Source: Millisia brevis NBRC 105863 (lineage in GTDB: Bacteria; Actinomycetota; Actinomycetes; Mycobacteriales; Mycobacteriaceae). From it: a stretch of DNA of 64,000 bases. Made by a program: the position numbers and the translations under genes. Shown piece after piece: positions 43,617-57,752 of the stretch. The notes beneath the pieces are model-generated. The model did not search any database, was not told where the DNA came from, and saw only the letters and a list, made by a program, of their open reading frames with translations. The DNA lies in assembly GCF_001552615.1 (NCBI RefSeq), contig NZ_BCRN01000006.1, positions 186,001 to 250,000 of the forward strand. Direction: 5' to 3'. The stretch's first letter is position 1, and every line of letters begins with the position of its first letter.

Positions 43617-44021
43617 ATGACGACCAGCCCCACCACCCCCGGGACCGAAGCCGCCACCCCGACGCCGTTCCGGGTGACCGCCGAGGCCTGGAAGGACCTG
43701 CCCAAGATGCCGGATGCGGAGTACCCCGGCACCGACGGATATATCGGCGACGTCTACGTCAATCCGGACGGCAGCACCATGTGCTCGGGCTTCTTCGAAC
43801 TGCGCCACACCGACCCGGCCCTGGTCTACGAGTACACCTACGACGAGATGAAGGTCGTCCTCGAGGGCGAGTTCCTGCTCGAGAACATCGACACCGGCCA
43901 GAAGACCGTCGCCAAGGCCAAGGACGCGATCTTCTTCCCGAAGGGTTCGCGCATCGCGTTCACCACGCCGTCCTATGCGCTCGCCTTCTACACCGGTGAC
44001 CGCAACGGCGACTCGCTCTGA
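43617..44021 (+). CDS. Small cupin protein (EutQ-like) leading the N-demethylase operon
   Basis: 134 residues. A single cupin domain: MCSGFFELRHTDPALVYEYTYDEMKVVLEGEFLLEN and KAKDAIFFPKGSRIAFTTPSYALAFY. The first cupin motif has tyrosines where metal-binding histidines are usual, as in EutQ-like proteins. It lies 57 bases before the first DmmA-like gene and after the operon's promoter region. A role as accessory or scavenging protein for the demethylases is inferred from position only. Confidence 0.7.
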   Translation: MTTSPTTPGTEAATPTPFRVTAEAWKDLPKMPDAEYPGTDGYIGDVYVNPDGSTMCSGFFELRHTDPALVYEYTYDEMKVVLEGEFLLENIDTGQKTVAKAKDAIFFPKGSRIAFTTPSYALAFYTGDRNGDSL

Positions 44022-44078
44022 GCCGACCGGATTCCGCCGATCCGTCGATCCACCTCCACTCGGAAAGGGTGAGCGGTC

Positions 44079-44651
44079 ATGAGTGTCGAAACGACCACCG
44101 AACCGGCCCCCGGACTTCCGGTCTGGCCGATCGAGCCCGAACCGGTCGATCCCACCGCGGCGACCTACCTGATCATCGCGATCGGGACCGACCCGGCGAC
44201 CGCGGAGGTGGCCCGCTCCTGGGTCGCCGCCGCGGAGCACCGGGCGCCAACCCGACTCGTCGTGGCCGATGGCGTCGAATCCGATGCTGCCGGCCATGAC
44301 TCGGCAGGCATCGGCCGTGCCGACATCGTCACCGCTCTGCAGGCGGCTCGCGTGGGCGTGCGCATCATGGTGGTGGGCGGTCAATACGACGTCCTGACCA
44401 CCCTGGCGATCGCCCGCGCGCGGGGAGCGGGTGAAGCCGAGTTGCGGTGCTTCGTCATCGACGCCGAAGCACCCACGGTGGACCTGCCGGTGTACTGCGC
44501 GCACTGTCGGGCCACCCATCGCATGCACACCAGCCCGGGCGGTAGCGCCGTCTGCCCGGGGTGCGGGCGCCGGCTCGAGGTGCACGAGCACCACTCGGCG
44601 GCCCGCGGCAGCTTCCTGGCCTCCGACGCGGAAGCGAGGGATCTCCGGTGA
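44079..44651 (+). CDS. dmmA: DmmA-like subunit of N-demethylase, set 1
   Basis: 190 residues. The N-terminal 120 resemble a nucleotide-fold domain (TYLIIAIGTDPATAEVARSWV ... GVRIMVVGGQYDVLTTLAIARARG). The C-terminal part is a zinc-ribbon-like segment, VYCAHCRATHRMHTSPGGSAVCPGCGRRLEVHEHHS, with two CxxC pairs. This layout matches the small DmmA subunit of dimethylamine monooxygenase. The flavin/iron-sulfur and heme subunits follow with four-base overlaps. A second, diverged copy lies at 46704. Confidence 0.8.
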   Translation: MSVETTTEPAPGLPVWPIEPEPVDPTAATYLIIAIGTDPATAEVARSWVAAAEHRAPTRLVVADGVESDAAGHDSAGIGRADIVTALQAARVGVRIMVVGGQYDVLTTLAIARARGAGEAELRCFVIDAEAPTVDLPVYCAHCRATHRMHTSPGGSAVCPGCGRRLEVHEHHSAARGSFLASDAEARDLR

Positions 44652-45673
44652 GCGCACCCACCGAATCGCGCGCCTCGCTGCATCAGCACCCCATCTACCG
44701 TATCGAGGCGCGGATGCTGACCGTGGCGGCGATCACCGACCTCACCCCGACCATCCGCCAGGTGGTCTTCACCGATCCGACCGGGCGCCCGCTGCCCTCG
44801 CACGAGCCCGGCGCGCACGTCGTGGTCACCACCCATCCGGGTACCGAGCGGCAGAGCCGCAACGCCTACTCGCTGACCGGGGACGGCGTCCTGCCCCGCG
44901 ACTATCGAATCTCGGTGCTGCGCAAGAGCGCCGAGGACGGCGGCCGGGGTGGCTCGGAATGGGTCCACACCCTGGGCGTCGGCGACCTCGTCGAGATCGA
45001 GGGGCCGCGTTCGCATTTCGCTCCACGCCACGATCAGCGTCACGCCCTGCTGGTCGCCGGCGGCATCGGGATCACCCCGATCCTGTCGCACGCCCGGGCG
45101 CTGCGGCGCTGGGCGGGCACCGCCGAGGTGCTCTACGCCTACCGCGAGGGATTCGGCGCGCACCTCGACGATCTGGCCGAACTCGGCCGGTCCCCGGGCA
45201 TCACCGTGCATCTCGCCACCGGCGAGTCGGAGATGCTCGACCTGATGACCTCGCGGTTCGCCGATCAGCCCCTCGGCACGCACGCCTACGCCTGCGGCCC
45301 GGCGGGTCTGCTCGAGACCTATCAGCAGGTGGGTCGGGACGCAGGCTGGCCCACCGACCGCATGCATCTGGAGCGGTTCGCCGCACCGGAGCTCGATCCC
45401 GGCGCCCCCTTCACCGCGACGGTGCTCTCCACCGGCACGCGCGTGGACGTCGCCCCCGGGGTGAGCCTGTTGACCGCCCTGCTCGAAGCCGGGGTCGCGG
45501 TACCGAATCTGTGCCGACAGGGGGTCTGCGGCGAATGTCTGATCCCCGTCCGGTCGGGTGAGGTCGAGCACCGTGACTTCGTTCTGTCCGAAGACGAGCG
45601 CGCCGTTGGGGATCGCATGCTGTGCTGCGTCTCCCGCGGCGTCGAGAACGTCGAATTGGAGGTCGACCTGTGA
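44648..45673 (+). CDS. Reductase subunit of N-demethylase (PDR/VanB type), set 1
   Basis: 341 residues. A phthalate-dioxygenase-reductase-like protein: FMN domain (RNAYSLTGDGVLPRDYRISVLR), NAD domain (LLVAGGIGITPILSHARAL ... THAYACGPAGLLE) and a C-terminal plant-type 2Fe-2S domain with Cys near residues 289, 294 and 297 (LCRQGVCGEC) and a fourth in RMLCCVSR. It would pass electrons from NAD(P)H to the heme subunit. The GTG start overlaps the DmmA-like stop. An approximately 20-residue N-terminal extension is absent from the set 2 copy. Confidence 0.85.
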   Translation: MSAPTESRASLHQHPIYRIEARMLTVAAITDLTPTIRQVVFTDPTGRPLPSHEPGAHVVVTTHPGTERQSRNAYSLTGDGVLPRDYRISVLRKSAEDGGRGGSEWVHTLGVGDLVEIEGPRSHFAPRHDQRHALLVAGGIGITPILSHARALRRWAGTAEVLYAYREGFGAHLDDLAELGRSPGITVHLATGESEMLDLMTSRFADQPLGTHAYACGPAGLLETYQQVGRDAGWPTDRMHLERFAAPELDPGAPFTATVLSTGTRVDVAPGVSLLTALLEAGVAVPNLCRQGVCGECLIPVRSGEVEHRDFVLSEDERAVGDRMLCCVSRGVENVELEVDL

Positions 45674-46707
45674 CCGCTGTAACCGTTGCGACCGAGGCGG
45701 TCCCCGCCCCCATCGAAGCGGCCCCGATCCAGGGGCATACCGCCCGCCTGCCCTGGCCCTTCCCCGACGATCTGTCGGCATTCCGTTATTCGGTCAACGT
45801 CGAGCCCGGGCGCAGCCCGCACCGGACCGCCGCCGGGCAGTGGGGCGCCCACATCGTCGACCTCGGCGGTGAGGAGTACGGGGCGATCATGGCCGAGCGG
45901 CGCCGCATCCTCGACGCCGACCCGCAGCGCCTCAAGATGATGCCCGGCATGATGCCGGCGGCCTGGGATCTGTTGCTCTACTACCTGCGCGATCTGTCGC
46001 TGTCCTATCCGGCGATCATGTCGCTGGAGGAGGACGGCGACCGATTCCATTGGCGCAACCGGGCGCTGGGCACCGACCAGGCATTCGTGCTCGGCGACCT
46101 CGACAGCCTGCCCTACGACCCGATGACCTTCCTCGGCCGCGAGATCCCCGACGATCTGCTGCTGGTCAAGGAGCGCGACGGCAAGTTGCACTTCGACGCG
46201 GGGCTGGTGACCTTCGCGGCGGCGTGGTCGGTGTCCTTCGACGTCGGCATGAGCATGTACGAGATCCACAGCCCCGTCCCGCGGATGAACCGCGAACGGA
46301 TCACCGCGCGGGCCGAACAGTTCCTCTCCCATCTGCCGGCCGATCAGGTCTACCGCCGGGTGAACTGGACGTTGTCGGCATCGGGCTCGCGCAAGCTCGA
46401 CGTCAGCCTCGAGGAGCTGCCCGAGTGGGGTACCGACATCGCCGAACTCGTCCGGGACAAGGATTGGGGCCGGCTGCAATTGCGGATCGAGGTCGAACAC
46501 TTCATCCGACTGCCGATGACCGGGGCGGTCACCTTCAACATCCGCACGCATATGAGCTCCCTCGAGGAGATCAAGCGCATCCCGGCCTGGCGCGATCAGC
46601 TCGCCACCGTCGTCCTCGAGCTTCCGGAGGATCTGGCCGCCTACAAGGGTTTCCTCGACTACCGACAAGACGCCATGGCCTGGTTGACCGACGGGAGCGC
46701 CTCGTGA
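45670..46707 (+). CDS. Heme-dependent oxidative N-demethylase catalytic subunit (DUF3445), set 1
   Basis: 345 residues. The sequence fits the DUF3445 family, whose characterised member (HODM alpha subunit from Pseudomonas mendocina) is a PAS-fold heme enzyme oxidising dimethylamine to methylamine plus formaldehyde. Signature blocks are FHWRNRALGTDQAFVLGDLDSLPYD, MYEIHSPVPRMN, VYRRVNWTLSASG and LRIEVEHFIRLPMTGAVTFNIRTHM. GTG overlaps the reductase stop. The exact substrate may differ between the two copies in this operon, which differ at many positions. Confidence 0.85.
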   Translation: MTAVTVATEAVPAPIEAAPIQGHTARLPWPFPDDLSAFRYSVNVEPGRSPHRTAAGQWGAHIVDLGGEEYGAIMAERRRILDADPQRLKMMPGMMPAAWDLLLYYLRDLSLSYPAIMSLEEDGDRFHWRNRALGTDQAFVLGDLDSLPYDPMTFLGREIPDDLLLVKERDGKLHFDAGLVTFAAAWSVSFDVGMSMYEIHSPVPRMNRERITARAEQFLSHLPADQVYRRVNWTLSASGSRKLDVSLEELPEWGTDIAELVRDKDWGRLQLRIEVEHFIRLPMTGAVTFNIRTHMSSLEEIKRIPAWRDQLATVVLELPEDLAAYKGFLDYRQDAMAWLTDGSAS

Positions 46708-47249
46708 AGCCCAACTACACCAGCGTGCCCGGCTGGGCCCGCTCCGCCGCGGTCGAGGCGGCCGATCGGCGCGGACGCTCGCATACCGTATTGGCGATCG
46801 GGGGCGGCGACGCGCTGGGCGTCGCCGACGCCTGGGTGGCCGACCTGGCCGACACCGGGGCGCAGATCCGCCGACACGACTGCCCGGACGTCGACGCCGC
46901 GCGGGCGGCGCTCACCGACGATCTGAGCGCGGCGACCGTGGGCCATCGCGTCGCGGTGGCCGGCCCGGTCCGCGACTGCCTGGCGCTGCGGGCGGCGGCG
47001 ATCGCCGCCGGCCTGGCGGACGACGAACTGCGCTTCGGGGTGGTCTCCGTCGCCGAACGCAGCGTCTGGTGCGTGCACTGCCGGGCGGTGACCGAGGCGA
47101 CCGTCGAGATCGAGGCGACCGTGCCGTGCAGCGGCTGCGGCCGGGAGCTGGTGGTCTACCCGCATATCTCGCGTCGCATGGGCCACCACCTCGGCTTCAT
47201 GGTCGACGCCGAGGATCAGCCCTACGAGCAGCCGGAGGTATCGGCATGA
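46704..47249 (+). CDS. dmmA: DmmA-like subunit of N-demethylase, set 2
   Basis: 181 residues with the same two-part plan as set 1: a nucleotide-fold-like N-terminus (TVLAIGGGDALGVADAWVADLAD ... VGHRVAVAGPVRDCLALRAAAIAAG) and a CVHCRAVTEATVEIEATVPCSGCGRELVVYPHISRRMGHHLGFM tail with two CxxC pairs. The tail looks closer to standard DmmA than set 1 does. It starts the second A-B-C triplet, overlapping the first heme subunit as GTGA. Confidence 0.8.
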   Translation: MKPNYTSVPGWARSAAVEAADRRGRSHTVLAIGGGDALGVADAWVADLADTGAQIRRHDCPDVDAARAALTDDLSAATVGHRVAVAGPVRDCLALRAAAIAAGLADDELRFGVVSVAERSVWCVHCRAVTEATVEIEATVPCSGCGRELVVYPHISRRMGHHLGFMVDAEDQPYEQPEVSA

Positions 47250-48244
47250 GCGTCGGAAGCGATCGGCTCGACCTGGTGGTCGCGGCCGTCTCCGAGGAGG
47301 CGCCGGGCATCCGGCACGTGCGCATGCGGCGTGCGGACGGCGGCGCCCTGCCGCCGTTCACCCCCGGCAGCCACATCGTGGTCGAGATCCCGGCGGGCAG
47401 GGGCCGCGCGCGCACCCTGGCGAACGCCTACTCGTTGACCGGCGAACCGCGCGAGCCGGTCGACTACGAGATCTCCGTGCTGCGCTGCCCCACCGCCGAC
47501 GGCGGTGCGGGCGGCTCGGAGTGGATTCACGAACTGGCGGTGGGCGATCCGGTCACCGTCCTGCCGCCGCGCAGCTCCTTCCCCCCGATCCGCTTCGCCC
47601 GCAAGCACGTGCTGGTCGCCGCCGGGATCGGGATCACCCCGCTGCTGTCCCATCTGCGCTCGCACGCCCGGTGGGGGCACGAGGTCGAGGTGATCTACCT
47701 CTATCGGGACGGCATGGGCGCGCACGCCGACGAGGTGGCACGGCTCGGCGGTGACCGCGTCACCGTGGTGCACGACCGCGCGAGCTTCCTGGAACTGCTG
47801 CCCGAGCGTCTGAGCGGGCAGCCGATCGGTACCCATGTGTACACCTGCGGGCCGGCGAGCTTCATGGACACCGTCGTCGACATCGCGGTCGACACCGGAT
47901 GGCCGGATAGCCGAATTCATCTGGAACACTTCGGCATCGACGCCCTCGATGCCGGCGACCCGTTCACGGTGACCGTCACCGACGGCCCGACGTTCGAGGT
48001 GGCATCGGGTACCAGCCTGCTCGAGGCGCTCGAGGACCACGGGATCGCCGTGCCGAATCTCTGCCGACAGGGCGTCTGCGGCGAATGCCGGGTGACGGTG
48101 GTGCCGTCCGACGACGGTGGTCCGCTGCACCGGGATCTGTATCTGTCCGAGGAGGACAAGGCGTCCGGGTCCTGCCTGATGGCCTGCGTCTCACGAGCCC
48201 TGCCCGATGCGAACGGGCGCGCACATCTGGAGGTCAAGCCATGA
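47246..48244 (+). CDS. Reductase subunit of N-demethylase (PDR/VanB type), set 2
   Basis: 332 residues. Same architecture as set 1: LANAYSLTGEPREPVDYEISVLR for flavin, VLVAAGIGITPLLSHLRSH and THVYTCGPASFMDT for NAD, and a C-terminal 2Fe-2S domain with LCRQGVCGEC plus CLMACVSR. ATG overlaps the DmmA-like stop and its own stop overlaps the heme subunit start. Keeping its own reductase suggests the second demethylase is a complete enzyme and not a spare catalytic chain. Confidence 0.85.
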   Translation: MSVGSDRLDLVVAAVSEEAPGIRHVRMRRADGGALPPFTPGSHIVVEIPAGRGRARTLANAYSLTGEPREPVDYEISVLRCPTADGGAGGSEWIHELAVGDPVTVLPPRSSFPPIRFARKHVLVAAGIGITPLLSHLRSHARWGHEVEVIYLYRDGMGAHADEVARLGGDRVTVVHDRASFLELLPERLSGQPIGTHVYTCGPASFMDTVVDIAVDTGWPDSRIHLEHFGIDALDAGDPFTVTVTDGPTFEVASGTSLLEALEDHGIAVPNLCRQGVCGECRVTVVPSDDGGPLHRDLYLSEEDKASGSCLMACVSRALPDANGRAHLEVKP

Positions 48245-49272
48245 CGATCACCGACCACGACGCGGCCGCGGCGGGCTATCGGTCCGCCCCGGATCTCGTC
48301 CGGGGTTTCCCCTTCCCGTTCCCCAACGAGATCTACCGCTACTCGACCAATGTCGAGCCCGCCCCCGCCGCGGTACCCACCCCGGCCGGCCAGTGGGGCG
48401 CGGCGGCGGTCGACGTCGACTCCGAATACCTCCACGAACTGGCCGAGCGGGCGGAGGTCCTGCGGCGGGATCCGAGCCGCTACGCGCTGCTACCCCATAT
48501 GGACGTCGCCGCCTGGGACGCGATGCTCGTGCTGATGCGCGAGCTGGCCGCCACCCATCCGGAGGACTTCGAGCTGACCCTGCTCGAGTCGGGTACCCGA
48601 CCCCGATACCACTGGCGCAACGCCCTTCTCGATATCGACCACACCTTCACCCTCGGCGATCCGAGCACCCTGCCCGCCGAACCTCTCGCCTGGATCACCA
48701 GCCAGGTGCAGGAGGATATCGTGCTGCTCGATCAGCGCGACGGGGTGCTCTACGGCGATGCGGGCGTGGTCACCTTCGCGGCCGACTGGTCCTTCGGCTT
48801 CGACGTCGGCATGACCTTCCTCGAAATCCACGGCCCGGTACCGCGTCTGCACAGCGAGGGCGTGATCACCCGGGCCCACGAATTCCTGCTGCGCCTGCAG
48901 CCCGGCCAGTGCTACCGCCGCACCAACTGGACGCTGACGGTCGGGCGGCGCCTGGACGTGTCGACCGAGGTCTACCACGAATGGGGACCCGACCGGGAGA
49001 TGATCCAGACCGTCGACGACGAAACCTTCGGGCGTCTGGTGCATTTGCGCGTCGAGGTCCAGCATCTGATCCGCCTGGCGGAGTCCGGCGCGATCATGTT
49101 CCTCATCCGGACGTACATGTTGCCCTTCGCCGATCTCGCCCGGATCGAACCGTGGAAAAACCGAACGGCCGATATTTTGGAGGAGTTGCCGGAGGATATG
49201 GCCGACTACAAAGGGATCATCAAGTTTCGCGGACGAGCAGCCGAATGGCTCAGAGCGGCGCCCGGCGCCTGA
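48241..49272 (+). CDS. Heme-dependent oxidative N-demethylase catalytic subunit (DUF3445), set 2
   Basis: 343 residues. Matching blocks to set 1 are YHWRNALLDIDHTFTLGDPSTLPAEP, FLEIHGPVPRLH, CYRRTNWTLTVG and LRVEVQHLIRLAESGAIMFLIRTYM. Overall the two copies are clearly paralogous but well diverged, so they are not a recent duplication. The segment after RL in the late motif (AESGA against PMTGA) is one of several differences that could alter substrate choice. It is the last gene of the six-gene overlapping chain; the ammonium transporter follows after 206 bases. Confidence 0.85.
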   Translation: MTITDHDAAAAGYRSAPDLVRGFPFPFPNEIYRYSTNVEPAPAAVPTPAGQWGAAAVDVDSEYLHELAERAEVLRRDPSRYALLPHMDVAAWDAMLVLMRELAATHPEDFELTLLESGTRPRYHWRNALLDIDHTFTLGDPSTLPAEPLAWITSQVQEDIVLLDQRDGVLYGDAGVVTFAADWSFGFDVGMTFLEIHGPVPRLHSEGVITRAHEFLLRLQPGQCYRRTNWTLTVGRRLDVSTEVYHEWGPDREMIQTVDDETFGRLVHLRVEVQHLIRLAESGAIMFLIRTYMLPFADLARIEPWKNRTADILEELPEDMADYKGIIKFRGRAAEWLRAAPGA

Positions 49273-49478: not shown

Positions 49479-50843
49479 GTGACACCCGACGACGCCCTGG
49501 TGGCCATGGAGTCGGTCCTGACCGACTTCTTCTACTGGGTCTCCACCGCTCTGATGATCTTGATTCACGCCGGCTTCCTCGCCTACGAGATGGGCGCATC
49601 GCGCTCGAAGAACGTGCTGGCGACGGCGATGAAGAACCTGCTGACCTTCGCGGTCACGATCGCCGCCTTCTTCTTTGTCGGGTGGTGGTTCTACAACGCC
49701 TTCTACCGCTTCCCCGTCGATGCGATCGACCCCGCGACCGCGGCCCTGCCGTGGAGCGAGGACATGGGACCGAACATCACCTCGGTCACCGGCATCTTCT
49801 GGGCCGCCTTCGCCCTGTTCGCCGCGACCACCGGCTCGATCATGTCCGGCGCGGTTCTGGAACGTATCCGCACCAGCGCCTTCCTGATCCTGTCGACCGT
49901 GCTCGGCGCGGTCGTGTGGATCATCGGCGCCTCCTGGGCCTGGCACGGCTCGGGCTGGCTGTTGACCGAATGGGGCTGGCACGACTTCGGCGCCGCCGGC
50001 GCGGTGCACCTGATCGCCGGCGCCTTCACCCTCGGCGTGCTGATCAACCTCGGGCCGCGCATCGGACGCTTCGTCAACGGCAAGGCGGTCACCATCCGCC
50101 CGCACAACCTGCCGCTGACCATGCTCGGCCTGATGCTGATCTTCGTGGGCTTCTTCGGCTTCCTGATGGGCTGCGTCGTCTACACCAACACCGGCTACTT
50201 CACGATCTTCGGCTCGCCCACCTCGCTCTCCGCGGTCGCCTTCAGCACCCTGATGGGTCTGGCCGGCGGCATCATCGGCTCGTACATGAGCTCGCGCGGT
50301 GAGCCGTTCTGGACGATCTCCGGCGGCCTGGCCGGCGTCATCTCCGTCGCCCCCGGTATGGACCTGTACCACCCGGCGGTCACCTTCATCATCGCGCTCG
50401 TCGGCGGCTTCATCGTTCCGTTCATCGGCAAGCTGCTCGAGCGCTTCCAGCTCGACGACGTGGTCGGCGCGGTGGCCGTCCACGGCGGCTGCGCGATCTA
50501 CGGTCTGGTCGTCTCCGGATTCGTGCTGTGGGGTATCCCGAACGTCGAGCTGGAGGGCTTCGGCACTCCCCCGGATATCAACCCGCTCGGCCAGATCGGC
50601 GGCATGGTCGTGATGGCCGCCCTCGGCTTCATCCCCGGCTACCTGCTCTCGCTGCTGCTCAAGCGCCTCAAGGTGTTGCGCATCCCGGCGGAGATCGAGG
50701 AGATCGGCCTCGACCTGAGCGAGGTCCCGGCCACCCCGTACCCCGAGGGCATCCCGGTGACCGCGATGAACGGTTCCTCGAACGGCAGCTCCAACGGCGT
50801 CTCCAGCAACGGAGCCGTGGCAACCAAGGAGGTATCGGCATGA
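49479..50843 (+). CDS. amt: Ammonium/methylammonium transporter
   Basis: 454 residues with about 11 membrane spans. The twin pore histidines are His177 (GAVHLIAGAFTLG) and His335 (VAVHGGCAIYG). GTG 49479 follows GGAGG. The C-terminus ends in a Ser/Asn-rich linker. In this setting methylammonium uptake is as likely as ammonium uptake; Amt proteins are known to carry both. Unlike the common amtB-glnK-glnD arrangement, no PII gene follows; the next gene is a 71-residue membrane protein. Confidence 0.92.
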   Translation: MTPDDALVAMESVLTDFFYWVSTALMILIHAGFLAYEMGASRSKNVLATAMKNLLTFAVTIAAFFFVGWWFYNAFYRFPVDAIDPATAALPWSEDMGPNITSVTGIFWAAFALFAATTGSIMSGAVLERIRTSAFLILSTVLGAVVWIIGASWAWHGSGWLLTEWGWHDFGAAGAVHLIAGAFTLGVLINLGPRIGRFVNGKAVTIRPHNLPLTMLGLMLIFVGFFGFLMGCVVYTNTGYFTIFGSPTSLSAVAFSTLMGLAGGIIGSYMSSRGEPFWTISGGLAGVISVAPGMDLYHPAVTFIIALVGGFIVPFIGKLLERFQLDDVVGAVAVHGGCAIYGLVVSGFVLWGIPNVELEGFGTPPDINPLGQIGGMVVMAALGFIPGYLLSLLLKRLKVLRIPAEIEEIGLDLSEVPATPYPEGIPVTAMNGSSNGSSNGVSSNGAVATKEVSA

Positions 50844-51055
50844 GCCATATCGACACGTACGACGGCGCGACCTGGGTCTACACCTTCGGACCGGGCAGCT
50901 TCATGACCGTCCTGTTCGTCATCCTGGCCATCGCATCCGTGATCGGATTCCTGGCGATGATGACCCGTCACGAGAATCACGCCTACGCCGCGATGCTCGC
51001 CCACGAGCCCGTGGAGCCCGGTCCCGCCGTCGAAGGCGAACCGCAGGCCTACTGA
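50840..51055 (+). CDS. Small single-span membrane protein, coupled to amt
   Basis: 71 residues. One strong hydrophobic span at about 21-41 (FMTVLFVILAIASVIGFLAMM), a short acidic N-terminus and a polar tail with EPVEPGPAVEGEP. ATG overlaps the amt stop (ATGA), so the two proteins are made together. It matches no family I recognise. A partner or stabiliser of the transporter is a reasonable guess. A strong terminator follows. Confidence 0.75.
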   Translation: MSHIDTYDGATWVYTFGPGSFMTVLFVILAIASVIGFLAMMTRHENHAYAAMLAHEPVEPGPAVEGEPQAY

Positions 51056-51326: not shown

Positions 51327-52727
51327 ATGACCCGAGTGACCGCCGACAGCACCACGAACGGTCGGGTCGACGCCGACCCCACCGCCGTGGCCCGCCCCGA
51401 TGACCTCGCCGCGCTGGCCCATGCTTCCGGGACCACCTTCATCCTCGCGCTCTTCGTCGATCTCAACGGCAAGCCCTGCGCCAAGCTGGTGCCGGTCGAG
51501 GCGGTCGAGGAATTGCAGAACGATGGTGTCGGCTTCGCCGGCTATGCCGTCGGCGCGATGGGCCAGGAACCGAAGGATCCCGATCTGATCGCCCTGCCGG
51601 ATCCGTCGTCGTTCACTCCGATCCCCTTCGTGCGGGAGGGCCTGGCGATCGTGCACTGCGATCCCCACGTCAACGGCACGCCGTGGCCGTACGCGCCGCG
51701 CGTGATCCTGCGCAATGTCCTCGATCGTCTGCGGACCGAGCAGGGCCTCGAGGCCTACGCCGGCGCCGAGGTCGAGTACTTCCTGGTGCGCCGGGATGCC
51801 AGTGGGAAGCTGGTCACCGCCGATCCCGGCGACAACGCCGCCCAGCCCTGTTACGACGCCCGCGGCGTCACCCGCATGTACGAGCACCTCGCCGCGGTCT
51901 CGCGGGCGATGAACACGCTCGGCTGGGAGAACTACGCCAACGACCACGAGGACGGCAACGGCCAGTTCGAGCAGAACTTCGCCTACGCCGACGCGATGAC
52001 CACCGCCGACCGGGTGATCACGCTGCGCTACCTGCTGTCGATGATCGCCGAGGAACGCGACATGATCGCGACCTTCATGCCCAAGCCCTTCGCCGATCGG
52101 ACCGGATCCGGGCTGCACCTGCACCTGTCGCTGTGGCGCGACGGCGCTTCGGCCTTCCCCGACGCCGCCGACGAGCGCGGACTGGGACTGTCCGAGGTGG
52201 CCTACGAGTTCACCGCCGGCATCCTCGAGCACGCCGGAGCCCTGCAGGCGATCCTCGGACCGTCGGTGAACTCCTACAAGCGCACCGGTGCGGTCAGCAC
52301 GACCTCCGGCGCCTCCTGGGCGCCGCGCTTCCCCACCTACGGCGGCAACGACCGGACCCACTTCATCCGCATCCCCGACGGCCACCGCATCGAGCTGCGC
52401 GGCGGCGACGGGTCGGCCAACCCCTACCTGGCGATCGCCGCCTCGGTCGCGGCCGGCCTCGACGGGATCACCCGCTCGCTCGATCCCGGCACGGTCGGCG
52501 GTGACAACGGCACCTCGCGCGCCGCGCTGCCGCAGACCCTGCTGCACGCGGTCGACGCCCTCGACGCCGACCCGGTCATCCGCGGCGCCCTCGACGCGGC
52601 GACGGTCGAGCCGGAGGAGACCAAGTCGGTGGCCGACTACTTCAGCCGGATCAAGCGCGAGGAGTTCTTCTCCTGGCACTCGACGGTCGGCTCCTGGGAG
52701 CTCGACCGGTACCTGACCGCGTACTGA
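51327..52727 (+). CDS. gmaS: Gamma-glutamylmethylamide synthetase-like glutamine synthetase family protein
   Basis: 466 residues. Glutamine synthetase fold: AGAEVEYFLV, DHEDGNGQFEQNF, MPKPFADRTGSGLHLHLSLW, SVNSYKR and HRIELRGGDGSANPYL. The length and the GNGQFEQN/MPKPF..TGSG pattern match the GlnT/GMAS group that ligates methylamine or other amines to glutamate, not the housekeeping GlnA. No adenylylation tyrosine loop typical of GlnA-I is apparent. The following mgsABC-like genes strongly favour gamma-glutamylmethylamide synthesis. ATG 51327 follows GGAAGG. Confidence 0.8.
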   Translation: MTRVTADSTTNGRVDADPTAVARPDDLAALAHASGTTFILALFVDLNGKPCAKLVPVEAVEELQNDGVGFAGYAVGAMGQEPKDPDLIALPDPSSFTPIPFVREGLAIVHCDPHVNGTPWPYAPRVILRNVLDRLRTEQGLEAYAGAEVEYFLVRRDASGKLVTADPGDNAAQPCYDARGVTRMYEHLAAVSRAMNTLGWENYANDHEDGNGQFEQNFAYADAMTTADRVITLRYLLSMIAEERDMIATFMPKPFADRTGSGLHLHLSLWRDGASAFPDAADERGLGLSEVAYEFTAGILEHAGALQAILGPSVNSYKRTGAVSTTSGASWAPRFPTYGGNDRTHFIRIPDGHRIELRGGDGSANPYLAIAASVAAGLDGITRSLDPGTVGGDNGTSRAALPQTLLHAVDALDADPVIRGALDAATVEPEETKSVADYFSRIKREEFFSWHSTVGSWELDRYLTAY

Positions 52728-52775: not shown

Positions 52776-53714
52776 ATGTGCGGAATCGTCGGGTTGCACC
52801 TGCGCAACCCTGATCTTCACCCGCGGCTCGGTGAGCTGTTGACCGGCATGCTGGTCGAAATGCAGGACCGGGGGCCCGATTCCGCGGGCGTCGCGGTCTA
52901 CGGTGATCCGCGCTGGTCGCCGGCGGGAACGGTCACCGTATCCTTCGTGCCCGATCCGGCGTCGACGTCGATCGTCGCGCCGGCCCCCGCCGCCGAGGTC
53001 GCCGCCACGCTGACCGCGCTGCTGGGCGCCGAGGTGACGGTCGTCGACGCCGGGCCGACCCTGGTCGCTCATACCCCGATCGGCGACGACGCCGCGGCCA
53101 CCGTGGCCGCCCTGCGCGCCGCGGTTCTGGAAACCTACCCGGACGCACTGATCGCCGGATTCGGCGAGTCGGTCGCGGTGCTCAAGGGCGTCGGGCATCC
53201 CCGCGTCCTGGCCGATGCCTACGACCTGCCGTCGGCGCAGGGCTGGCAGGGGGTCGGACATACCCGGATGGCCACCGAGTCGGCGGTCACCGCCGGCGGC
53301 TGCCATCCCTACGCGGTCGGCCCCGACCAGTGCCTCGTGCACAACGGATCGTTCTCCAACCACGCGACGATCCGCCGCGATCTGCTCGCCCGCGGCGCGG
53401 AATTCGACTCCGAGAACGACACCGAGGTCGGTGCCCGCTTCGTCGCCGACCGGCTCGCCGCCGGCGCCGACGTCGAGGTCGCGCTCAAGGAACTGTGCGC
53501 ATCGTTCGACGGCTTCTACACGCTGCTGGTCTCGAACGCCTCCTCCTTCGCGGTGGTCCGCGACGCGATCGCCTGCAAGCCCGCGGTGATCGCCGAGACC
53601 GACGACTGGGTGGCGATGGCCTCCGAGTACCGCGCCCTGGTGGGGCTTCCCGGAATCGACACCGCCCGTATCTACGAGCCCGAGCCCGAAAGGATCTACG
53701 TATGGACGCGCTGA
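52776..53714 (+). CDS. mgsA: Class II glutamine amidotransferase, N-methylglutamate synthase subunit A-like (GlxB)
   Basis: 312 residues. Ntn hydrolase beginning MCGIVGLHL, with nucleophile Cys2 exposed after removal of methionine. DRGPDSAGVAVY, VGHTRMATES and LVHNGSFSNHATIRRDL are glutamine-amidotransferase blocks. In N-methylglutamate synthase this subunit would release methylamine from gamma-glutamylmethylamide. It overlaps the next gene by 13 bases, giving the fixed order A-B-C. Confidence 0.85.
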   Translation: MCGIVGLHLRNPDLHPRLGELLTGMLVEMQDRGPDSAGVAVYGDPRWSPAGTVTVSFVPDPASTSIVAPAPAAEVAATLTALLGAEVTVVDAGPTLVAHTPIGDDAAATVAALRAAVLETYPDALIAGFGESVAVLKGVGHPRVLADAYDLPSAQGWQGVGHTRMATESAVTAGGCHPYAVGPDQCLVHNGSFSNHATIRRDLLARGAEFDSENDTEVGARFVADRLAAGADVEVALKELCASFDGFYTLLVSNASSFAVVRDAIACKPAVIAETDDWVAMASEYRALVGLPGIDTARIYEPEPERIYVWTR

Positions 53715-54442
53715 GCACGGACCCGCTGACGGAGGTCGCCGGAGCGGTGCGCGAGGTCGACCTGGCCGTCACCCCGCTGCGCTCGATCAACACCTGGCTG
53801 CACGGCCGACCGACCGACGATCTCGCCCCATTGGCCGAAACCGATGCAGTCACGATCCGCAATCCGCGCGGCGCCCACGCGCTGGCGGTCGGTCTCGACT
53901 CCCCCCGTCGGGTGGAGATCGCCGGACACGTCGGCTACTACGCGGCCGGGATGAACAAGGCCGCCGATGTCGTGATCACCGGCAACGCCGGTGTCGGCGT
54001 CGGCGAGAACATGATGAGCGGCTCGGTCACCGTGAAGGGCAACGCCTCCCAGTCCGCCGGTGCCACCGCACACGGTGGGTTGCTGGTGATCGAGGGCGAC
54101 GCCTCGGCGCGGTGCGGGATCTCGATGAAGGGTGTCGACATCGTCGTCGGCGGGTCGGTCGGCCACATGAGCGCCTTCATGGCGCAGGCCGGTCGACTGG
54201 TGGTGCGCGGCGATGCCGGTGAGGCACTGGGCGACTCGATCTACGAGGCCCGCCTCTACGTGCGCGGTTCGGTCGCCTCCCTCGGGGCGGACTGCATCGC
54301 CAAGCCGATGCGCGAGGAGCACCGCGAGGAGCTGGCCCACCTGCTCAAGGCGGCCGGCTTCGAGGACGACGACCTGTCGGCCTATACGCGGTACGGCTCG
54401 GCGCGCACGCTGTACCACTTCCACTCGGACAACACCTACTGA
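53702..54442 (+). CDS. mgsB: Glutamate-synthase alpha-like domain protein, N-methylglutamate synthase subunit B-like (GlxC)
   Basis: 246 residues. Repeated glycine-rich turns (ITGNAGVGVGENMMSGSVTVKGNA ... GDASARCGISMKGVDIVVGGSVGHM ... GDAGEALGDSIYEARLYVRGSV) form the right-handed beta-helix (GXGXG) of the glutamate synthase C-terminal domain, here a separate protein. Its role is structural, joining the amidotransferase to the FMN subunit. A stable hairpin lies between this gene and the next. Confidence 0.85.
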   Translation: MDALSTDPLTEVAGAVREVDLAVTPLRSINTWLHGRPTDDLAPLAETDAVTIRNPRGAHALAVGLDSPRRVEIAGHVGYYAAGMNKAADVVITGNAGVGVGENMMSGSVTVKGNASQSAGATAHGGLLVIEGDASARCGISMKGVDIVVGGSVGHMSAFMAQAGRLVVRGDAGEALGDSIYEARLYVRGSVASLGADCIAKPMREEHREELAHLLKAAGFEDDDLSAYTRYGSARTLYHFHSDNTY

Positions 54443-54515: not shown

Positions 54516-55862
54516 ATGAACGACGATCTCGCGCACCGCGGGCTGCGCCCCTCGGCAACCTTCGATCCGGCGACCGTGCACGCGATCCAGCGGGCCGCGA
54601 CCACCGGCATCTACGACATTCGTGGCGGCGGCGCCAAGCGGGCGCTCCCCCACTTCGACGATCTGCTCTTCCTCGGTGCCAGCATGTCGCGCTACCCGCT
54701 GGAGGGCTACCGCGAAACCTGCGGTACCGACGTGGAATTGGGCACCCGCAATGCCCGCTTCCCGCTGCACCTCGATATCCCGGTGACGATCGCCGGGATG
54801 AGCTTCGGCGCGCTGTCCGGCCAGGCGAAGGAAGCCCTCGGCCGCGGCGCCTCCGAGGTCGGCACGTCGACGACCACCGGTGACGGCGGCATGACGCCCG
54901 AGGAGCGGGGCCAGTCCAAGCACCTGGTCTACCAGTACCTGCCGAGCCGCTACGGGATGAACCCCGACGACCTGCGGGCCGCGGACGCGATCGAGATCGT
55001 GCTGGGCCAGGGTGCCAAGCCCGGTGGCGGCGGCATGCTGCTCGGCCAGAAGATCAGCGAGCGGGTCGCCGGAATGCGCACCTTGCCCGAGGGTATCGAC
55101 CAGCGCAGCGCCTGCCGCCATCCCGACTGGACCGGCCCGGACGACCTCACCATCAAGATCAACGAGCTGCGTGAGATCACCGACTGGGAGAAGCCCATCT
55201 ACGTCAAGGTCGGAGCCTCGCGCACCTACTACGACGTCAAGCTCGCCGTCCACGCCGGCGCGGATGTCGTGGTGGTCGACGGGATGCAGGGCGGTACCGC
55301 CGCCACCCAGGACGTCTTCATCGAACACGTCGGCATCCCCACCCTGGCGGCGATTCCCCAGGCGGCGCAAGCGCTTCGGGAACTCGGTGTACACCGGGCG
55401 GGCAAGGACGGCGTCCAGCTGATCGTCTCCGGAGGTATCCGGCACGGCGCGGACGTCGCCAAGGCCCTCGCCCTCGGCGCGGACGCGGTGTCGATCGGCA
55501 CCGCCGCCCTGATCGCCCTGGGCGACAACGATCCCCGCCTCGACGAGGAATACCGCAAGATCGGCTCGGCCGCCGGGTACTACGACGACTACCAGGACGG
55601 GCGCGACCCGGCGGGCATCTCCACCCAGGATCCCGAGCTGGCGAAGCGGCTCGACCCGGTCGCCGCCGGTCGGCGGGTGGCGAACTTCCTGCGGGTGCTG
55701 ACGATGGAGGCGCAGACGATCGCCCGCGCCTGCGGCAAGGCGCACGTCACCCACCTCGAGCCGGAGGATCTGGTGGCCCTGACCATCGAGGCCGCCGCGA
55801 TGGCCCGTGTCCCGCTCGCCGGAACCGACTGGGTCCCGGGCCGGCCCGGGGCGGGCTGGTGA
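54516..55862 (+). CDS. mgsC: FMN-binding glutamate-synthase-like subunit, N-methylglutamate synthase subunit C-like (GlxD)
   Basis: 448 residues. The FMN barrel of glutamate synthase: IAGMSFGALSGQAKEALGRGA, GQGAKPGGGGMLLGQK, IYVKVGASRTYYDVKLAVHAGADVVVVDGMQGGT, and IVSGGIRHGADVAKALALGADAVSIGTAALIALGD. The cysteine cluster that holds [3Fe-4S] in full-length glutamate synthase (CxxxxxCxxxxC) is not seen after GTAALIALG; GlxD-type proteins appear to share this. It would couple methylamine to 2-oxoglutarate giving N-methylglutamate. GTG of the flavoprotein overlaps its stop. Confidence 0.85.
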   Translation: MNDDLAHRGLRPSATFDPATVHAIQRAATTGIYDIRGGGAKRALPHFDDLLFLGASMSRYPLEGYRETCGTDVELGTRNARFPLHLDIPVTIAGMSFGALSGQAKEALGRGASEVGTSTTTGDGGMTPEERGQSKHLVYQYLPSRYGMNPDDLRAADAIEIVLGQGAKPGGGGMLLGQKISERVAGMRTLPEGIDQRSACRHPDWTGPDDLTIKINELREITDWEKPIYVKVGASRTYYDVKLAVHAGADVVVVDGMQGGTAATQDVFIEHVGIPTLAAIPQAAQALRELGVHRAGKDGVQLIVSGGIRHGADVAKALALGADAVSIGTAALIALGDNDPRLDEEYRKIGSAAGYYDDYQDGRDPAGISTQDPELAKRLDPVAAGRRVANFLRVLTMEAQTIARACGKAHVTHLEPEDLVALTIEAAAMARVPLAGTDWVPGRPGAGW

Positions 55863-57049
55863 GCACCGAGACCGCCGACGTCGTCATCGTCGGCGGTGGC
55901 CTCGAGGGCAGTTCCGCGGCCTATGCGCTGTCGCAGTTGGGCATCACCGATGTGGTCATCGTCGAACGCGGCACCGTCGGATCCGGCATGACCGCGAAGT
56001 CGAGCGGCATCGTGCGGTGCCACTACGGCGTACCGTCCCTGGCCGCGATGGCCACCGACAGCCTGGACACCTTCGAGAACGCCGAGGAGATCTTCGGCGC
56101 GGACATCGGCTTTCGGCAGATCGGCTACGTCGTCGGGGTCGGGTCGCCGAATGTCGAACCGTTCCGCGCCAGCCTCGCCGCCCAGCAGGCGGTCGGTGTG
56201 CTGACCGAGGAGGTCGACGCCGGCGCGGTGGCCGATCTCTGGCCGCAGGCGGACCTGTCCGACTTCGCCGCCTTCGCCTACGAGAAGCGCGGCGGCTACG
56301 GCGACGCCTATATGACCGCCCAGGCCTTCGCCGGTGGGGCCCGCGCCGCCGGGGTGCGGCTGCGCCAGCAATCCCCGGTCGTCGATCTGCTGGTCGAGGG
56401 CGACCGGGTGACCGGGGTGCGGCTCGCGGACGGCTCGACGATCTCCGCGAACACCGTGGTCGTCGCGACCGGCGCGTGGACGCGAGGGTTCCTGGCGCCG
56501 TTCGGATTCGACATCCCGATCCGGGTCCACCGCGAGGAGATCGTCATGGTCGCCCCGGGCGCCGACCTCGGCCCGGTACCGGTCTTCTCCGATCTGGTGT
56601 CGCTGCAGTACGTGCGCCCGGAGGTCGGTGGGGACATCCTGTTCGGCAACAGCGATCTGCAGCAGATCGAGGACGCGGATCCGGACGGCTACTCCAACCG
56701 GCTGACCGAGACGATTCGGGATATCGCGGTCGACAAGATCGGCACCCGATTCCCGGATCTGACCGAGGCGGCGATCAGCGGGGGTTACGCCGGCTGCTAC
56801 GACGTGACGCCCGACTGGAATCCGATCATCTCGCGGATGCCGCTCGACGGGCTGGTGCTCGCGGCCGGCTTCTCCGGGCACGGGTTCAAGATCTCGCCCG
56901 CGGTCGGACGCCTGATCGCCGACCTGGTCGTCGAGGGGCGCTCCCGCGATCCGCGTATCCCGGAGCGGGACTTCCGCTTCGAGCGGTTCGCCGAGAACGA
57001 TCCGCTGACCACGGCTTTTCCGTACGTCGGCGCCGGCGAGATGCGGTAA
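55859..57049 (+). CDS. Single-chain FAD amine oxidoreductase, candidate N-methylglutamate dehydrogenase/oxidase
   Basis: 396 residues of the DadA / sarcosine-oxidase-beta family: DVVIVGGGLEGSSAAYALSQLGITDVVIVERGTVGSGMTAKSSGIVR at the start and LVLAAGFSGHGFKISPAVGRLIADLVVEG at the end. It is translationally coupled to the N-methylglutamate synthase subunits (GTGA). The pathway needs an enzyme turning N-methylglutamate into glutamate plus formaldehyde, usually four-subunit MgdABCD, and no other mgd-like genes are present. This chain alone, as an oxidase or passing electrons to an unknown carrier, is the best candidate. Substrate is inferred from context. Confidence 0.75.
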   Translation: MSTETADVVIVGGGLEGSSAAYALSQLGITDVVIVERGTVGSGMTAKSSGIVRCHYGVPSLAAMATDSLDTFENAEEIFGADIGFRQIGYVVGVGSPNVEPFRASLAAQQAVGVLTEEVDAGAVADLWPQADLSDFAAFAYEKRGGYGDAYMTAQAFAGGARAAGVRLRQQSPVVDLLVEGDRVTGVRLADGSTISANTVVVATGAWTRGFLAPFGFDIPIRVHREEIVMVAPGADLGPVPVFSDLVSLQYVRPEVGGDILFGNSDLQQIEDADPDGYSNRLTETIRDIAVDKIGTRFPDLTEAAISGGYAGCYDVTPDWNPIISRMPLDGLVLAAGFSGHGFKISPAVGRLIADLVVEGRSRDPRIPERDFRFERFAENDPLTTAFPYVGAGEMR

Positions 57050-57101: not shown

Positions 57102-57752
57102 GTGCCCGACGAGACCCCGCTGCTGCGCAACCAATCCGGAACCGCCCGGTTCCGCGATCCCCGTGACCCGGTCGAGGAGCTCGAGCTCGAGACGGCGATC
57201 GCCCGGAATGTTCGACGGCTCCGGCATCAGATGGGCCTGTCGGTCGGGGATATGGCAGCGCGGGTCGGCATCTCCAAGGCGATGCTCTCCAAGATCGAGA
57301 ACGCCCAGACCTCCTGCAGCCTCAGCACGCTGTCGCTGCTCGCCCGCGGGCTCGACGTGCCGGTGACGTCGCTGTTCGGCGGGGCGGAGGGCGAGCGACC
57401 GGCGTCGTTCGTCAAGGCCGGGCAGGGGGCGCGCATCGCCCGCGAGGGCACCAAGGAGGGACACGAGTACCAGATGCTGGGCTCGCTGCGGGGCGAGCAC
57501 AAGCGCCTCGAATGCCTCGAGGTCACCCTCTCGGAGCGCAGCGAGACCTATCCGATGTTCCAGCATCCGGGTACCGAGTTCATCTACATGCTCGACGGCA
57601 TCATGGACTACCAGCACAGCCGGTCGGTATTCCGCCTGCACCCGGGTGACTCGTTGCAGATGGACGGCGAGGGCGCGCACGGTCCGGCGGACCTGGTCGA
57701 GCTCCCGATCCGTTTCCTGTCGGTGATCGCCTTCCCCGACTCGACCGTCTGA
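57102..57752 (+). CDS. XRE-family regulator with cupin domain, amine operon
   Basis: 216 residues from GTG 57102 (225 from GTG 57075). The helix-turn-helix covers about residues 35-90 (LSVGDMAARVGISKAMLSKIENAQTSCSLSTLSLLARGL), and the cupin about residues 120-210 (SETYPMFQHPGTEFIYMLDGIMDYQ ... LHPGDSLQMDG), where the effector, perhaps N-methylglutamate or gamma-glutamylmethylamide, would bind. It follows the flavoprotein by about 50 bases. The palindrome at 51200 is a candidate operator. Confidence 0.85.
   Translation: MPDETPLLRNQSGTARFRDPRDPVEELELETAIARNVRRLRHQMGLSVGDMAARVGISKAMLSKIENAQTSCSLSTLSLLARGLDVPVTSLFGGAEGERPASFVKAGQGARIAREGTKEGHEYQMLGSLRGEHKRLECLEVTLSERSETYPMFQHPGTEFIYMLDGIMDYQHSRSVFRLHPGDSLQMDGEGAHGPADLVELPIRFLSVIAFPDSTV

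Follow-up and report, generated by a model that had tools for sequence, protein, structure and literature searches.

The 64,000-nucleotide stretch analyzed here (positions 186,001 to 250,000 of contig NZ_BCRN01000006.1 of Millisia brevis NBRC 105863; hereafter the window) contains, at 44079-49272, six intact genes that almost certainly encode two separate enzyme systems of the HODM/DmmABC kind. The genes are labeled G for the DmmA-type small subunit, B for the reductase, and A for the heme subunit (the DmmC product in the Paracoccus literature), with 1 or 2 for the set. Their order, G1-B1-A1-G2-B2-A2, is the one read in the original prediction, i.e., a DmmA-like protein, a reductase, and a heme subunit twice over, and it was borne out by Pfam and NCBIfam matches, with all six genes over the cut-off or matched in profile searches for the DUF3445, DmmA, and reductase families (Table 1). 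The refuting outcome named for the heme subunits did not arise, both matching PF11927, the former DUF3445 that Pfam currently names "HODM_asu-like." As also predicted, every junction is a 4-nucleotide overlap, read from the sequence as GTGA at 44648, 45670, and 46704 and as ATGA at 47246 and 48241 (5/5). The cupin gene proposed to lead the operon is EutQ-like and is indeed its first gene, but it lacks such an overlap and ends 57 nucleotides before G1. In the locus comparison, the array is preceded by a cupin gene wherever no contig end truncates the locus. The array is not a chance assembly, since it recurs in 24 other loci. G1 terminates in a zinc-ribbon-like CxxC...CxxC motif, four 2Fe-2S cysteines are present in B1, and both reductases carry a Fer2 domain besides PF22290. 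Promoters and terminators were not found by consensus search, the consensus being uninformative at the GC content of this region.

Table 1. Genes from the leading cupin to the HTH-cupin regulator in the window
Feature	Position	Strand	Evidence
EutQ-like cupin, first gene of the operon	43617..44021	+	PF06249 52.8 bits (cut-off 21)
Set 1 small subunit G1, DmmA family	44079..44651	+	PF22289; NF041259 91.9 bits (cut-off 60)
Set 1 reductase B1 (NAD(P)/flavin and C-terminal 2Fe-2S ferredoxin)	44648..45673	+	PF22290, PF00111
Set 1 heme subunit A1 (HODM alpha)	45670..46707	+	PF11927 194.7 bits (cut-off 25)
Set 2 small subunit G2, DmmA family	46704..47249	+	PF22289; NF041259 107.9 bits
Set 2 reductase B2	47246..48244	+	PF22290 67.8 bits, PF00111
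Set 2 heme subunit A2 (HODM alpha)	48241..49272	+	PF11927 214.5 bits (cut-off 25)
Amt-type ammonium (possibly methylammonium) transporter	49479..50843	+	PF00909 214.6 bits
71-amino-acid protein, overlaps amt stop	50840..51055	+	no NCBIfam match
gmaS-like type III glutamine synthetase (gamma-glutamylmethylamide synthetase)	51327..52727	+	TIGR03105 589.6 bits (cut-off 469.6)
mgsA-like glutamine amidotransferase	52776..53714	+	PF13522, PF13537
mgsB-like GXGXG protein	53702..54442	+	PF01493 33.6 bits (cut-off 32.5)
mgsC-like glutamate synthase domain	54516..55862	+	PF01645 299.5 bits
FAD-dependent amine oxidoreductase (DAO), candidate N-methylglutamate oxidase	55859..57049	+	PF01266 215.5 bits; role inferred
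HTH-cupin regulator (PuuR-like)	57102..57752	+	PF01381, PF07883

Divergence of the two sets

Within the window, sets 1 and 2 are 45% identical in their heme subunits, 48% in their reductases, and 36% in their small subunits. A tree of the heme (alpha) subunits, which the original prediction had proposed to compare with characterized HODM, separates them into distinct groups: A1 belongs to a clade of its own (support, 100/100; stem, 1.32), A2 lies within a wide actinobacterial HODM clade whose members are also found solo, and the characterized proteins of Paracoccus aminophilus and Pseudomonas mendocina form a third clade. The set 1 reductase (29 rows; support, 1.0) and the set 1 small subunit (30 rows; support, 0.999) also form clades of their own. 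Because the reductases and small subunits split as the alpha subunits do, the whole three-gene enzyme appears to have diverged as a unit. A recent tandem duplication is ruled out by the identities and the separate deep clades, and the view of two diverged copies, each with its own reductase and small subunit, stands. Purifying selection acts on A1 and A2 to a comparable degree (omega, about 0.07-0.14). The cassette of the window groups with those of Nocardioides, yet the host genome shares its family with Gordonia; the cassette has therefore probably moved as a block.

Pairing of the sets across genomes

A genome scan with A1 returned 25 loci in Nocardioides, Pimelobacter, Aeromicrobium, Cryobacterium, Gordonia, and unplaced Actinomycetota. 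Both heme subunits are encoded in 24 of these, the exception (L021) ending inside A1. Three arrangements were seen: set 1 precedes set 2 in loci of the window type, the order is reversed in Gordonia and its relatives, and Cryobacterium has the sets in divergent operons. Among 59 Gordonia genomes, 31 carry set 1, and in all 31 A2 lies within about 3 kb. Pairing peculiar to the M. brevis genome is ruled out by these Gordonia genomes and the 24 other loci, in none of which is core set 1 solo; set 2 also occurs without set 1. In Cryobacterium, the canonical partner of set 1 comes from another subclade of the alpha tree, an argument for selection on the pairing itself. When 395 genomes of the class were sampled, 41 had a PF11927 protein and 5 had the adjacent pair. 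The double-HODM module looks widespread in Actinomycetes. Viral contigs gave no match, and no set 1 was found in Proteobacteria, plasmid tblastn giving about 41% or less outside Actinomycetes. Known systems had been described in the original prediction as using one set. This is true of the characterized enzymes, with one set each in Ruegeria pomeroyi and P. aminophilus (PMC5520151, PMC4543880), but double sets are frequent across genomes (31/59 Gordonia species and many Nocardioides and Cryobacterium). The plasmid NZ_CP097321.1 of "Candidatus Mycobacterium methanotrophicum" (L058) carries both sets with transposons between them, and the search found no intact set 1 reductase there.

A sister group of A1, here A1b, shares 53-58% identity with it and occurs, among varied neighbors, in genera g161 and g157, which belong to the family of the window genome. 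This group breaks any rule of obligate A1-A2 pairing. Genome G432, which is 99% complete, carries an A1b set but neither A2 nor gmaS, and in g157 genomes other than those described below A2 is gone from the A1b operon; at L076:8686-8853, a 56-amino-acid remnant of an A2-type alpha subunit persists between B and G'. A1-type sets can therefore probably work alone. Four loci (L071-L074) have a five-gene operon, cupin-G-B-A2-G'-A1b, in which two heme subunits and two small subunits stand with one reductase, a naturally occurring example of a common electron supply. Such loci, like the nearly constant linkage of the pair, would fit a single machine in which A1 and A2 combine into one mixed enzyme or draw on a shared electron supply; the A1b sets of G432 and L076, with no A2 or only its remnant, and the separate reductase and small subunit that each alpha subunit has in the window make this very unlikely. 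In the window, electrons would instead pass from each reductase to the heme subunit of its own set.

The gene for gamma-glutamylmethylamide synthetase, gmaS, was found in nearly all A2-bearing genomes checked, with only G436 (230 contigs) lacking a match at the cut-off used. In G592, G615, G634, and G651, gmaS lies within about 5 kb of A2, and A1b is elsewhere. It is thus A2, not A1b, that tracks gmaS.

Fold and signature residues of the heme subunits

The only solved relative of A1 and A2 is the P. mendocina HODM (5lte/5lth/5lti), with 5lte matched by A2 at an E value of 4.5e-95 and by A1 at 1.3e-70. An AlphaFold model of A1 (mean pLDDT, 82) superimposes on 5lte with a Z score of 34.0 and a root mean square deviation of 3.0 over 314 residues, and almost as well on 5lth, the complex of HODM with dimethylamine (DMA); the next matches are PAS domains (Z, ≤7). 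A2 and A1 (about 47% and 41% identical to this enzyme, respectively) share with it the whole-length fold, the PAS heme domain, and the single histidine that is invariant in all clades (A1 H200, A2 H197, HODM H194). Its location inside the PAS domain, which spans residues 155-290 of 5lte (PMC8694187), makes this histidine the natural candidate heme ligand.

Unlike the window, P. mendocina has one set, and its canonical residues H86, Q155, Q157, Y245, and Q274 (A2 numbering, used throughout) are all altered in A1, where the corresponding residues are G93, E158, P160, L250, and E276 in its own numbering. The A1 superclade is uniform (39/39) for Q157P, Q274E, the loss of Y245 (with Y245L among the changes), and the replacement of H268 by Q or R, and the 29/29 rows of core A1 additionally have H86G and Q155E. 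In the canonical clades, H86 and Q274 are kept throughout and the other signature residues with few exceptions. Since A2 retains the canonical-invariant H86, Q157, and Q274, which are G, P, and E in A1, set 1 is assigned to a paralogous clade of its own in the HODM family and is not classed as a DMA monooxygenase. If these positions line the pocket, fewer bulky and more acidic residues would be in keeping with a substrate that is larger or more cationic.

The glycine that takes the place of H86 in every core A1 row, a position invariant in canonical enzymes, could also be read as the mark of a noncatalytic protein, either a heme sensor or a decaying copy. This is hardly credible given that A1 keeps H200, the sole all-clade histidine, that the three-gene set is conserved, and that omega is about 0.1. 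Another reading takes the two sets as DMA isozymes tuned to differing affinity, oxygen level, or expression. Their fold, universal histidine, operon, and purifying selection are indeed all alike, but all three components are long diverged, charge-changing substitutions are fixed, set 2 is widespread solo whereas core set 1 never is, and gmaS follows A2, not A1b. Isozymes are accordingly improbable; the two sets very likely have nonredundant roles, and different substrates are likely.

Proposed roles of the two sets

Downstream of the array, gmaS and mgsABC are present in order, as expected of the N-methylglutamate pathway, and this is the route from monomethylamine (MMA) to glutamate. Set 2 is probably a DMA monooxygenase converting DMA to MMA, because of its clade, its solo use, and its tight link to gmaS. 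For set 1, trimethylamine (TMA) is the leading candidate substrate, if a tentative one, because genomes with set 1 almost all lack Tmm and Tdm was detected only in solo-A2 genomes. Within the family, Tmm is present in 14/43 solo-A2, 0/32 core-A1, and 1/14 A1b genomes (Fisher p=1.1e-4, with shared ancestry ignored). Tdm turned up in 3/401 genomes, each of them solo-A2, and the 24 pair genomes that were tested all lack it. The M. brevis genome has no full-length Tmm or Tdm, its best Tmm match reaching 25% over 150 amino acids and its Tdm matches being partial and mainly to the GcvT part. The split between a tertiary and a secondary methylamine, offered as an example in the original prediction, fits this near absence and the downstream gmaS-mgsABC genes, and TMA is thus a candidate substrate of set 1 at most.

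In the explanation that we favor, about evenly poised between right and wrong as a whole, two HODMs would act in series, each with a heme b PAS-fold subunit, a flavin/2Fe-2S reductase, and a DmmA-type small subunit. Set 1, the ancient paralogue, would convert TMA to DMA and formaldehyde, bypassing the Tmm/Tdm route through trimethylamine N-oxide (TMAO), and set 2 would convert DMA, O2, and NAD(P)H to MMA and formaldehyde. From MMA, GmaS-MgsABC together with the neighboring DAO oxidase would then yield glutamate and a C1 unit. Retention of the pair in many related bacteria of soil and sea suggests that each copy removes a different methyl group, with nitrogen and carbon supplied to the cell. 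Set 1 might represent a functional class that is new among HODMs, namely, a tertiary-amine (TMA) N-demethylase with a heme PAS fold. Together with its DMA partner, it would allow aerobic Actinomycetes to convert TMA to MMA without TMAO by means of a single operon, a proposal that we make with reserve.

Several points weigh against TMA as the set 1 substrate. Within genus g161 alone, the Tmm distribution has the same direction but p=0.27. Most solo-A2 genomes have neither Tmm nor Tdm either, and the exclusion by Tmm in Gordonia extends to any HODM, not set 1 alone; for these two reasons, TMA is not singled out by the association between set 1 and lack of Tmm. That A1 and Tmm exclude each other in Gordonia (p=2e-4) was striking but was likewise dropped as proof, as Tmm there excludes solo HODM too. 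Cryobacterium luteum has the pair together with Tmm, G601 has A1b and Tmm, and in G432, with A1b but neither A2 nor gmaS, DMA would be a dead end. Any placement of the signature residues at the heme would be conjectural, and the activity of set 1 is predicted. Our estimate for TMA was held down by the phylogeny-blind test, the many solo-A2 genomes without both genes, and the exceptions C. luteum, G601, and G432.

A credible but less favored alternative is that set 1 demethylates another N-methyl amine and that set 2 completes the branch through DMA or MMA. Examples of such a substrate are ethylmethylamine, a diamine or amino acid bearing an N-methyl group, and a tertiary amine of larger size. 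The strong divergence of the A1 superclade (H86G, Q157P, Y245L, and Q274E), the persistence of A1b without A2 and gmaS in G432, and the varied neighbors of A1b loci would all suit it. However, core set 1 always occurs in a cupin/amt and usually a gmaS/mgs methylamine setting, where additional catabolic genes that would handle a bulky substrate are lacking.

Relation to known methylamine systems

The DmmABC(D) systems of R. pomeroyi and P. aminophilus (PMC5520151, PMC4543880) share with the window the order small subunit, reductase, heme subunit and the use of GmaS/Mgs for MMA. DmmABC is required for growth of P. aminophilus on DMA (PMC4543880). The window differs in having two sets, in own actinobacterial clades, and in lacking Tmm/Tdm and the folate-binding dmmD; no dmmD (GcvT-type) is among the genes typed at 42.6-57.8 kb. 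DmmABC is active in E. coli without DmmD (PMC5520151). The TMAO route, through the flavin monooxygenase Tmm and Tdm, would likewise yield DMA, but it is absent from the window genome and from nearly all set 1 genomes, and the chemistry here would be direct heme demethylation. The adjacent N-methylglutamate genes keep the known GmaS-MgsABC order, whereas a single DAO oxidase follows instead of mgdABCD.

In Gram-positive methylotrophs, EutQ-like cupins adjoin methylated-amine genes (PMC5023230). The 2015 genome survey that reported this found neither a candidate for a DMA monooxygenase nor a Tdm close to the Tmm genes in its strains. It proposed a "Tmd" in Arthrobacter strains, by gene numbering two places from EutQ and two from Mao (Table 2 of PMC5023230), and described it as having a ferredoxin, a flavodoxin, and an NAD(P) motif. 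Since this make-up fits an HODM reductase, we infer from that table that the missing Gram-positive DMA monooxygenase may have adjoined "Tmd." No description of double HODM operons was found in open-access papers, subscription papers lying outside the search, and this two-enzyme variant of a known system is real, widespread, and apparently undescribed. Metformin N-demethylation was considered as a published six-gene HODM precedent, but none was found, and the metforminase described is a hydrolase.

The oxidation of TMA and DMA by Gram-positive bacteria is poorly defined, a gap that a conserved double-HODM module would fill in Gordonia, Nocardioides, Cryobacterium, a methanotrophic Mycobacterium, and other hosts. 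The pair also offers a natural experiment on the change of substrate in a heme PAS enzyme. Surveys based on dmm, tmm, and tdm currently miss this module, which would add to the markers available for methylamine turnover in soils and the sea.

Flanking genes and other loci

An Amt gene follows the array in most loci compared. Two distant Amt subfamilies, with about 80% versus 25-28% identity to the window Amt, fill this same slot (L006, L010, L014, L015, and L024 compared), and the Cryobacterium locus L014 has an additional PII gene. The 71-amino-acid protein, which has one apparent hydrophobic stretch, is 56-61% identical in Nocardioides-type loci and occurs only with the Nocardioides-type Amt. 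The DAO gene, which adjoins mgsC where mgdABCD would be expected and may encode a one-subunit N-methylglutamate oxidase, has the same position in Gordonia loci (72-74% identical). The HTH-cupin regulator is kept near the array in Gordonia and Cryobacterium loci.

Three genomes (G291, G283, and G739; loci L067, L085, and L086) are rare members of the family with neighboring Tmm and Tdm, all of them solo-A2. At L067, an adjoining open reading frame matches the EutQ-like cupin, and in G283 the Tdm frame contains two stops. M. brevis itself encodes a third, very divergent HODM alpha subunit at L087:8307-9350 (contig C3, about 206.3-207.4 kb), with 44% identity to A2 and an end branch of 2.69. A reductase (39%) lies alongside, molybdopterin oxidoreductase and FdhD genes adjoin, and a sarcosine-oxidase/dimethylglycine-type cluster (L088) is located ~20 kb away.

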